Part shown: positions 29,566-47,579 of the stretch, in pieces
How the letters are laid out: each line of letters opens with the position of its first letter
Position numbering within the stretch: position 1 is the first letter of the stretch
DNA from: Halopiger xanaduensis SH-6
GTDB lineage: Archaea; Halobacteriota; Halobacteria; Halobacteriales; Natrialbaceae
Direction of reading: 5' to 3'
DNA length: 64,000 bases
NCBI RefSeq assembly: GCF_000217715.1
Contig: NC_015666.1
Location: forward strand, 1,066,270-1,130,269
The notes under the pieces: generated by a model
The model's database searches: none
What the model saw: only the letters and a program-made list of their open reading frames with translations
What the model was told of the DNA's origin: nothing
Made by a program: the position numbers and the translations under genes

Positions 29566-29735
29566 CGTCCTGACGAGGGTTTAGATATAGAAGACATCAG
29601 CTTCGCTTCGCTCGCGGTTTGGTAGCAGCAGAAACGTCCTGACGGAGTCTCACGCGAACGAAGTGAGCGTGAGGCACGTCAGGACCGAACGCAAGAGCAG
29701 GCGCTGAGTAATGCGAAGCGCCTGCGATAAGTGAG
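29566..29735 (-). repeat. tRNA-Arg 3'-end-derived palindromic repeat array
   Basis: Downstream of tRNA-Arg (leftward on this strand). A 13-base copy of the tRNA end (T-stem 3' strand, acceptor 3' strand, discriminator) lies at 29635-29647, a 10-base copy at 29566-29575, and an inverted 9-base copy at 29677-29685. Hairpin stems: CTCACGC (29649-29655) with GCGTGAG (29667-29673), loop GAACGAAGTGA; and GCAGGCGCT (29697-29705) with AGCGCCTGC (29717-29725). Direct and inverted tRNA copies alternate around the hairpins. Spacings between direct copies are 101 and 69 bp. Confidence 0.8.
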
Positions 29736-40762: not shown

Positions 40763-40835
40763 GTCCGGGTTGGGGTAGTGGTTATCCTTCAGCCTTGTGG
40801 AGGCTGAGACGCGGGTTCGATTCTCGCACCCGGAC
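40763..40835 (+). tRNA. tRNA-His (GTG)
   Basis: Acceptor TCCGGGT pairs with ACCCGGA, with the His-specific extra G(-1) at 40763 paired to C73 at 40835. Anticodon stem AGCCT/AGGCT around loop TGTGG-type sequence gives anticodon GTG. T-arm GCGGG TTCGATT CTCGC. No CCA encoded. Its 3' flank starts immediately with a hairpin and contains two further degraded copies of its own T-arm and acceptor end. Confidence 0.95.
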
Positions 40836-41092
40836 CTTCTGTGGCGAACAACTTTGTGAGCCACAGAAGTCGTCAGAGAATCGAATCAGGGAGCGACGCG
40901 AACGAAGTGAGCGGAACGACCGTGGTTCGATTCTTGTACCCGGACTTTTTGCCGCGAGCAAATCCGTGAGCGGCGCAAATTCGACCGAGATCGAACCGTA
41001 GCCAGACGGTCGATCTCACTCCGTTCGGCCGCTGCGACTGGCAGGGTTCGATTCTCGCACCCGGCCGTTTTGTGACGAGCAAACCGGCGAGT
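40836..41092 (+). repeat. tRNA-His 3'-end-derived palindromic repeat array
   Basis: Direct copies of the tRNA segment T-stem to base 73 lie at 40921-40945 (20 of 25 matches) and 41042-41066 (22 of 25). Inverted copies: GAGAATCGAA at 40876-40885 (exact) and GAGATCGAACC near 40987. Hairpins: TTCTGTGGC (40837-40845) with GCCACAGAA (40860-40868), loop GAACAACTTTGTGA; GCCGC with GCGGC near 40951-40974, loop GAGCAAATCCGTGA; and a third after the last copy with loop GAGCAAACCGGCGA. GAACGAAGTGA occurs at 40900-40910. Spacings are 110 and 121 bp. No gene is supported in 40836-41234. Confidence 0.85.
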
Positions 41093-41234
41093 CGCAGGTA
41101 TCGTCAGAACGGGCCTCGAGGCGGCGCGATGATGGTGCGGCCGTCGTACCGACGAGTCGAGGTCGGCTTGCGTATCGAGGGCGGCGGCGTAGTCATGCCC
41201 TCGCGTTTAGACGGGGCGTCTCGTACCGACGGGT

Positions 41235-45723: not shown

Positions 45724-45860
45724 TTGCCCGGTCCGCGTCGACGCGTCAGACGGTGCTCCCGCTCGTCTCCTTCCTGCAAAACGACAACTCGCTAGCACGA
45801 TCTACTTGCGGTTCGGTCCTGCGACTTCTCGAGTCGAATCTCGTAAAATTGGCTGGCAAC

Positions 45861-45977
45861 TCCGGGTTTGAACCACGCGAACACGGTCGCTCGCGGCGCT
45901 CGCACTGCGTGTTCTCTAGTTCAAATTCGTTCGGCGTCGTTTCTGCGCCTCCTCACTTCATCCGTCGCCGCAGAATA
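45861..45977 (-). repeat. tRNA-Phe 3'-end-derived palindromic repeat unit
   Basis: Downstream of tRNA-Phe on its own strand. TTCTGCG (45941-45947) and CGCAGAA (45969-45975) form a 7-bp stem that begins 2 bases from the tRNA's discriminator, with GATGAAGTGA in the loop on the tRNA strand. Further away a degraded direct T-arm copy, TTTGAAC at 45867-45873, faces an inverted copy GTTCAAA at 45919-45925. They enclose GAACAC (45879-45884) and GTGTTC (45909-45914). It is the most degraded of the four arrays. The rest of 45724-45860 shows nothing recognisable. Confidence 0.7.
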
Positions 45978-47164: not shown

Positions 47165-47505
47165 CGGCTCGGGCGGGTTCGAACAACGCGAAGACGGTCG
47201 CTCACTGCGTTCGCGCCGTCTTCTCTCGTTCGAATCGCCCTCGGCCACGTATCCGTTGCTCTCGAGTTTGCTCGCAGTGGGAACTGGGCTCGGGCGGGTT
47301 CGAACCACGGTCGGAGCAAGCTCCTCCCTGATTAGAACCTGCCCTCAGATACATTTCTGTGGCTCACGCGTTGTTCACCACAGAAATGGGCTCGGGCGGG
47401 TTCGAACCACCTGAACTTCGCTCGCTGTCGCTCGCTCGTTCCGTCGTTCGAACCGCCGCTCGCATCACGATACTGTCGCTCACGAGTTGTTCGCGACAGA
47501 AGTAG
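47165..47505 (-). repeat. tRNA-Val 3'-end-derived palindromic repeat array (best preserved)
   Basis: Three direct copies of the tRNA-Val end: 47387-47411 (25 of 25 bases: T-stem, T-loop, acceptor strand and discriminator), 47285-47308 (24 exact) and 47166-47184 (19 exact). Starts are spaced about 102-120 bp, like the distance to the tRNA itself. Inverted degraded copies lie near 47448-47464, 47332-47344 and 47229-47247. Hairpins: CTGTCGC (47473-47479) with GCGACAG (47493-47499); TTTCTGTGG (47354-47362) with CCACAGAAA (47378-47386); GAAGACGG (47190-47197) with CCGTCTTC (47216-47223). Loops on the tRNA strand contain GAACAACTCGTGA, GAACAACGCGTGA and GCGAACGCAGTGAG. Confidence 0.9.
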
Positions 47506-47579
47506 TGGGCTCGGGCGGGTTCGAACCACCGACCTCGGCCTTGTAAAGGCCGCGTCATGACCAGCTAGACCACGAGCCC
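47506..47579 (-). tRNA. tRNA-Val (TAC)
   Basis: Acceptor GGGCTCG with CGAGCCC, discriminator A, anticodon stem CGGCC/GGCCG with loop TTTACAA giving anticodon TAC, and T-arm GGTGG TTCGAAC CCGCC. No CCA encoded. Six bases after the discriminator begins a hairpin, followed by three copies of the tRNA's own 25-nt end. Confidence 0.95.

Follow-up and report, generated by a model that had tools for sequence, protein, structure and literature searches.

Tandem two-hairpin units bearing copies of the host tRNA gene's 3' end: a candidate family of small mobile elements in Halobacteria

The tRNA-Val array and its counterparts at other tRNA genes

The stretch of DNA analysed here, 64,000 nucleotides in length and referred to below as the window, contains a gene for tRNA-Val(TAC) that is followed downstream by three tandem units of 102-120 bp, each closing with a copy of the last part of that gene (nt 53-73, GTTCGAACCCGCCCGAGCCCA). 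The genome is haloarchaeal and belongs to the family of Natrialba, Natrinema and Natronorubrum. An earlier sequence-only reading had given the coordinates of the gene and of the tandem copies of its own end, and both proved correct when they were re-located in the sequence and searched for across the genome. Because the segment occurs at two or fewer mismatches only at the tRNA-Val locus (whole genome, search allowing up to three mismatches), the copies are not a product of chance. The inverted T-arm copies and hairpins described between the direct copies are likewise real, with the transcript strand of the array folding at z = -7.2 relative to shuffled sequences. Inverted copies do alternate with direct ones, as had been proposed, but the two are not independent, since an inverted copy, a loop and a direct copy together form one long hairpin. 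At Rfam gathering thresholds the window returned no family except tRNA and RNase P, and no match to RtT.

The array is not peculiar to tRNA-Val, where it was first noticed, and the same anatomy follows many tRNA genes. A second host gene in the window, tRNA-His(GTG), carries two units, and a decayed unit lies downstream of tRNA-Phe(GAA). The features are as follows.

47506..47579 (-): tRNA-Val(TAC), host gene (ARAGORN, Rfam RF00005)
47506-47526 (-): tRNA-Val nt 53-73, the copied segment (ARAGORN, Rfam RF00005)
47387..47505 (-): unit 1, 119 bp; hairpin A, inverted T-arm, hairpin B, direct copy
47473..47499 (-): hairpin A of unit 1, CTGTCGC-GAAC...GTGA-GCGACAG, with a tandem GA mismatch
47396..47459 (-): hairpin B of unit 1; the 5' arm is the inverted T-arm (47446-47463), the 3' arm the direct copy
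47387..47407 (-): direct copy 1 of nt 53-73, exact
47285..47386 (-): unit 2, 102 bp, B1 subfamily (CAGGGAG...CGACCGTGGTTC)
47354..47386 (-): hairpin A of unit 2
47292..47344 (-): hairpin B (B1) of unit 2; inverted T-arm at 47332-47346
47285..47305 (-): direct copy 2 of nt 53-73, exact
47165..47284 (-): unit 3, 120 bp, more decayed than units 1 and 2
47245-47282, 47228-47242 and 47171-47240 (-): weak hairpin A, inverted T-arm and hairpin B of unit 3
47165..47184 (-): direct copy 3 of the tRNA-Val end, a single end mismatch
40764..40835 (+): tRNA-His(GTG), second host gene (ARAGORN, Rfam RF00005)
40836..41066 (+): two units after tRNA-His, 40836-40945 (B1 hairpin) and 40946-41066, each ending in a copy of the tRNA-His end
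41068-41097 (+): extra hairpin A after the tRNA-His units
45854..45977 (-): decayed unit downstream of tRNA-Phe(GAA)
45941-45975, 45863-45929 and 45854-45873 (-): hairpin A, hairpin B and degenerate copy of the tRNA-Phe unit

In addition, the region after tRNA-Arg(GCG) at 29566-29735 holds repeats of an acceptor-end piece, CGTCAGGACG, without the T-loop; these are possibly decayed units.

To compare genomes, an own-end copy was scored where at least 19 of the last 25 nt of a tRNA were matched downstream of it. On this basis own-end copies follow 14 of the 45 tRNA genes collected from the home genome (G000), 15 of 43 in a genome of the same genus (G001) and 24 of 46 in one of the same family (G018), counts that include a few whole-tRNA neighbours (one in G000, two in G018); the swapped-tRNA-end control gave 0.8, 0.5 and 1.0, respectively. 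The same anatomy is found at about one-third of the tRNA genes of the home genome and at up to half in other genomes, and 68 units were listed at 53 tRNAs. A genome from another haloarchaeal family has own copies at 14 of 30 tRNAs (0.3 expected), and a genome from another class of the phylum has own-end copies at 0 of 30. No array contains a copy of a different tRNA's end, the sole exception being an array beyond which comes a genuine tRNA-Asp gene, itself followed by an array. As a separate observation, three tRNA-Gly(CCC) genes in G018 (contig C1, ~1401000; locus L170) stand in an exact 143-bp tandem, which is whole-gene amplification.

Unit anatomy and the local origin of the copies

On the tRNA strand, the order within a unit is hairpin A, a short spacer, an inverted T-arm, hairpin B and the direct copy. 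Hairpin A, of which CTGTCGCGAACAACTCGTGAGCGACAG is an example, shows compensatory variation: 127 motif matches have at least 5 of 6 flanking pairs, as against 29 with shuffled partners, and they comprise 77 distinct stems in which the inner R-Y pair is G-C or A-T in 120 of 127 cases. Pairing between the inverted and direct T-arms makes hairpin B a single long stem, interrupted by an internal loop. Among the listed units, sizes range from 72 to 175 bp, which leaves no room for a gene and so excludes an integrase gene inside the element. Hairpins A and B place palindromes near both ends of the unit; by inspection of the listed units, the ends themselves (T-rich/hairpin A versus CGACCGTGG) are not mutual inverted repeats, and no parent transposon for the units was found.

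As the T-loop is near-invariant among tRNAs, the copies might be ascribed to chance repeats or to a generic T-arm similarity. The swapped controls have already refuted this, and we give it next to no likelihood: own ends were found at 14-24 tRNA genes per genome against about one with swapped ends, and over acceptor nt 62-73, outside tRNA-Val(TAC), own identity is 0.80-0.98 against 0.31-0.64 when swapped. This acceptor portion is without a pairing partner in the unit and is still own-specific. The inverted arm is own-specific solely at nt 57 and nt 62-65, and less strictly than the direct copy.

Comparison of 123 copies located the edges of the copied segment. Own-specific identity starts within the invariant GTTC (nt 53-56), with nt 57 the first variable position to show it, and stops at the discriminator (nt 73); relative to the swapped control there is no excess at nt 49-51, hardly any at nt 52 and essentially none past nt 73. 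Because own-specific identity spans GTTC to nt 73, the copied segment is 17-21 nt long (its left edge being resolvable only to nt 53-57) and the T-stem start is not its edge. The tRNA structural boundary at position 49, taken by the sequence-only reading as the edge, is a coincidence of the tRNA-Val locus, and this identity profile rules it out as a general edge.

Class-wide restriction, module exchange and a non-tRNA insertion

One hairpin-B subfamily, B1, was used for a class-wide survey with the pattern CAGGGAG N4-30 CGACCGTGGTTC, which detects B1 alone. B1 is present in 258 of 391 Halobacteria genomes, representing 72 of 86 genera, and the reversed pattern gave zero matches. In a phylum-wide sample, B1 was found in 51 of 81 Halobacteria and in 0 of 312 other genomes. 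Sampling of 88 B1 loci placed 86 of them 60-430 nt beyond a same-strand tRNA, whose own end most of them bear; some low own-end scores at these loci reflect a 1-nt loop shift, with the acceptor part intact. Different tRNAs share hairpin-B subfamilies, and the tRNA end is in each case the local one. Since the same hairpins recur at many genes and yet every copy agrees with the gene beside it, the target must be the template for the copy. Copies scattered away from tRNAs, which the sequence-only reading had named as the outcome that would count against an array, were looked for in the genome search and at the sampled B1 loci of other genomes, and that was not the pattern seen.

The two exceptions among the 88 loci carry Arg and Pro ends. 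In the Arg case (G309 contig C4, ~36-45 kb; loci L221/L222), tRNA-Arg(TCG) lies 8 kb upstream, and the 8-kb insert that separates it from the array, in which no integrase was identified, is bounded by a 13-nt repeat of the tRNA's end. In the Pro case (locus L294, ~620-650), 14 nt of the tRNA-Pro end stand ahead of the unit and no tRNA lies within 700 bp upstream, which suggests another integrative insertion. Two pattern matches in IMG/VR had no tRNA upstream in the fetched DNA and were followed by sequence unlike any tRNA end; these were taken as chance.

Related genomes differ cleanly in the presence of units. The tRNA-Phe gene of Natrinema hispanicum is followed by one unit in strain DSM 18328 and by none in CDM_6, the flank resuming right after the discriminator; the site is empty in N. 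mahii and N. thermotolerans, and Haloterrigena H1 and N. ejinorense have two different units there between the same flanks. All of the tRNA-Phe empty/filled junctions compared lie directly after the discriminator, and the single events may each be gain or loss. Any one empty site could stem from deletion between direct repeats. The modules are also exchanged: the tRNA-Val units of N. limicola and N. hispanicum have hairpin B and the flank in common but not hairpin A. Natrialba asiatica and Natrialba aegyptia, for their part, have hairpin A and the flank in common and differ in hairpin B. Unit 1 of the tRNA-Val array has its counterpart, at 96% identity, in the second unit of G001, the congener; two units (96% and 85% identity) stand in opposite order in these two genomes. 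At tRNA-Phe, the five copies of Natribaculum breve form a two-unit alternating pattern. In its alternate unit (locus L095, minus strand), hairpin modules break up a tRNA-Phe anticodon-arm fragment, the interruption falling precisely within the T-loop; it looks as though a longer tRNA copy had received a unit insertion.

The element is also found after a protein gene. In G018 and G005, which represent two genera, three tandem units follow a gene whose product ends in ...DWDGYRFEPV-stop (locus L069, 1317-1700, and locus L068, minus strand). The last codons of this gene, GGTTCGAGCC or GGTTCGAACC, are T-arm-like, and the units copy the gene's own end, over 18 nt including the stop codon in G018 and at least 14 nt in G005. 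Of its orthologues, 26 of 29 are without a unit; one (G021) has just a hairpin A-like remnant. Since the element copies the own end of a protein gene, recognition needs no tRNA, and these sequences point decisively to recognition of DNA rather than of tRNA. From the same copies, the far edge would be set by distance from the dyad, at 18-21 nt. The mature tRNA 3' end had been suggested as the substrate. Copying from it is ruled out by this protein-gene occurrence, by the CCA missing from the copies and by the retention of A57 in 37 of 40 A57 cases.

A candidate mechanism, its rivals and known systems

We favour, at a probability of roughly 0.6, a Halobacteria-specific family of non-coding, two-hairpin mobile elements of ~80-125 bp that would insert 3' of T-arm-like dyads with an 18-21 bp target duplication. 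Insertion would take place directly 3' of a T-arm-like DNA dyad (GGTTCRANNCC), in almost all cases within a tRNA gene, and would duplicate the 18-21 bp that reach from the T-loop as far as the 3' end; the host gene would retain a complete end and a new, identical target would arise. Repeated rounds, together with homologous exchange among T-arm copies, would build, shuffle and remove tandem units. We infer that the copy is a target duplication made at insertion, by a staggered cut or repair. Some enzyme would act in trans, presumably recognising the folded hairpins, and the inverted arm may be corrected later. Repeated insertion or copying of a small element, already proposed in the sequence-only reading, fits well with the empty and filled sites, the differing units per site and the own-end copies at many tRNAs. 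G000, G001 and G018 lack Cas1, and the near-complete G000 also lacks a Y1 transposase (Y1_Tnp), so the units can do without a resident casposase or IS200/IS605-type enzyme.

Against this explanation, no mobilising gene was identified, with both Cas1 and the Y1 transposase missing from the home genome, and ~20 bp is an exceptional length for a target duplication. Simple target duplication also does not predict that the inverted T-arm inside the unit should partly match the local tRNA, as it does; this needs later arm-to-arm correction or selection. A very doubtful alternative is a self-addressing element, whose internal inverted T-arm, when single-stranded, would pair with the T-arm-like target and read and copy it. 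If true, this would be a previously unknown mode of site-specific insertion that spares the host gene.

The units might instead be attachment-site relics or mini-cassettes of a tyrosine recombinase, with hairpins A and B as minimal attP arms that such an integrase left behind or moved, in an integron-like arrangement and with crossover at G53^TTC. The premise is that tRNA-targeted integrative elements bear the tRNA 3' end in attP; archaeal integrases typically insert at tRNA 3' ends (PMC8371274), and the G^TTC unit boundaries, head-to-tail array, order shuffling and module swaps are cassette-like. We nevertheless consider this possibility unlikely, because the real integrative elements seen (at tRNA-Arg in G309 and probably at tRNA-Pro in G020) have 13-14 nt att sequences, nt 60/61-73, and displace the array rather than containing it, and these two cases were rejected as parents of the units. 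Conservative recombination would moreover bring foreign acceptor ends to downstream array positions, where none was found, and phage and plasmid records gave no match to the units and no relatives of the array. Distinctly unlikely is a functional RNA of tRNA precursors (a trailer, terminator or processing decoy) maintained by selection, its copy number changing by unequal crossing-over. That stems covary, that arrays are old and class-wide and that hairpin A-like sequences follow several copy-less tRNAs would all agree with such a role; however, about half or more of the tRNA genes are without units, close relatives differ in their presence, the element also follows a protein gene and copies its stop codon, and the own-specific acceptor part has no partner with which to pair inside the unit.

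If the units are indeed mobile elements inserting at T-arm-like dyads, then one-third to one-half of the tRNA genes in many haloarchaea carry downstream mobile-element copies, from an element that enters essential genes harmlessly and remakes its own target. This would account for unannotated partial tRNA copies in haloarchaeal genomes, and empty versus filled sites would provide a ready-made assay for finding the enzyme.

The family is apparently undescribed, and a literature search, with subscription papers and preprints outside its scope, returned no description of such tRNA-end-copying units. By mode of action, the nearest systems are small trans-mobilised repeats (MITEs, PATEs and SMRs), casposons at tRNA ends and tyrT repeats, and the element lacks at least one defining feature of each family tested. 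The tyrT repeats of E. coli (rtT RNA), known at one bacterial operon, are tandem units after a tRNA gene, each with a copy of the tRNA 3' end (~19 bp). Our units share with them the tandem downstream arrangement and the host tRNA 3' end copy, but occur at many tRNA types across an archaeal class and have two hairpins, an inverted T-arm and signs of mobility.

The MITEs, PATEs and SMRs of Haloquadratum walsbyi are short, non-coding, palindromic mobile repeats of ~80-110 bp, trans-mobilised and with target preference; the SMRs and PATEs go into other mobile elements and leave no target duplication, and none of these repeats is described as tRNA-specific or as copying a host gene end (PMC3119063). 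Like MITEs, our units are short, non-coding and high-copy, with empty and filled sites, and have an 18-21 bp target duplication at both tRNAs and the protein gene, its origin at insertion being probable; unlike MITEs, they have no terminal inverted repeats shared with a known transposon. The palindromes near both unit ends recall PATEs and IS200/IS605 elements, from which the units differ in the 18-21 nt copy made and in the lack of Y1_Tnp in G000.

Casposons are archaeal and integrate at tRNA 3' ends with target duplication, but are large, encode Cas1 and make duplications of 14-15 bp, which in M. mazei overlap just the last 4 bp of the tRNA (PMC6977970); our units have the longer 18-21 nt copy, and the three genomes searched lack Cas1. 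Archaeal viruses and plasmids with tyrosine integrases also use the tRNA 3' end (PMC8371274), but are single kb-scale elements; in those seen here, the att measures 13-14 nt and no hairpin array belongs to the element itself. In Methanopyrus kandleri, a palindromic motif reported as specific to that species follows about half of the tRNA genes (PMC5217627); it is a single palindrome of ~18 bp, with no tRNA-end copy and no arrays. The likeness to an integron cassette array is one of architecture only, in the variable hairpin and the conserved G-TT boundary.
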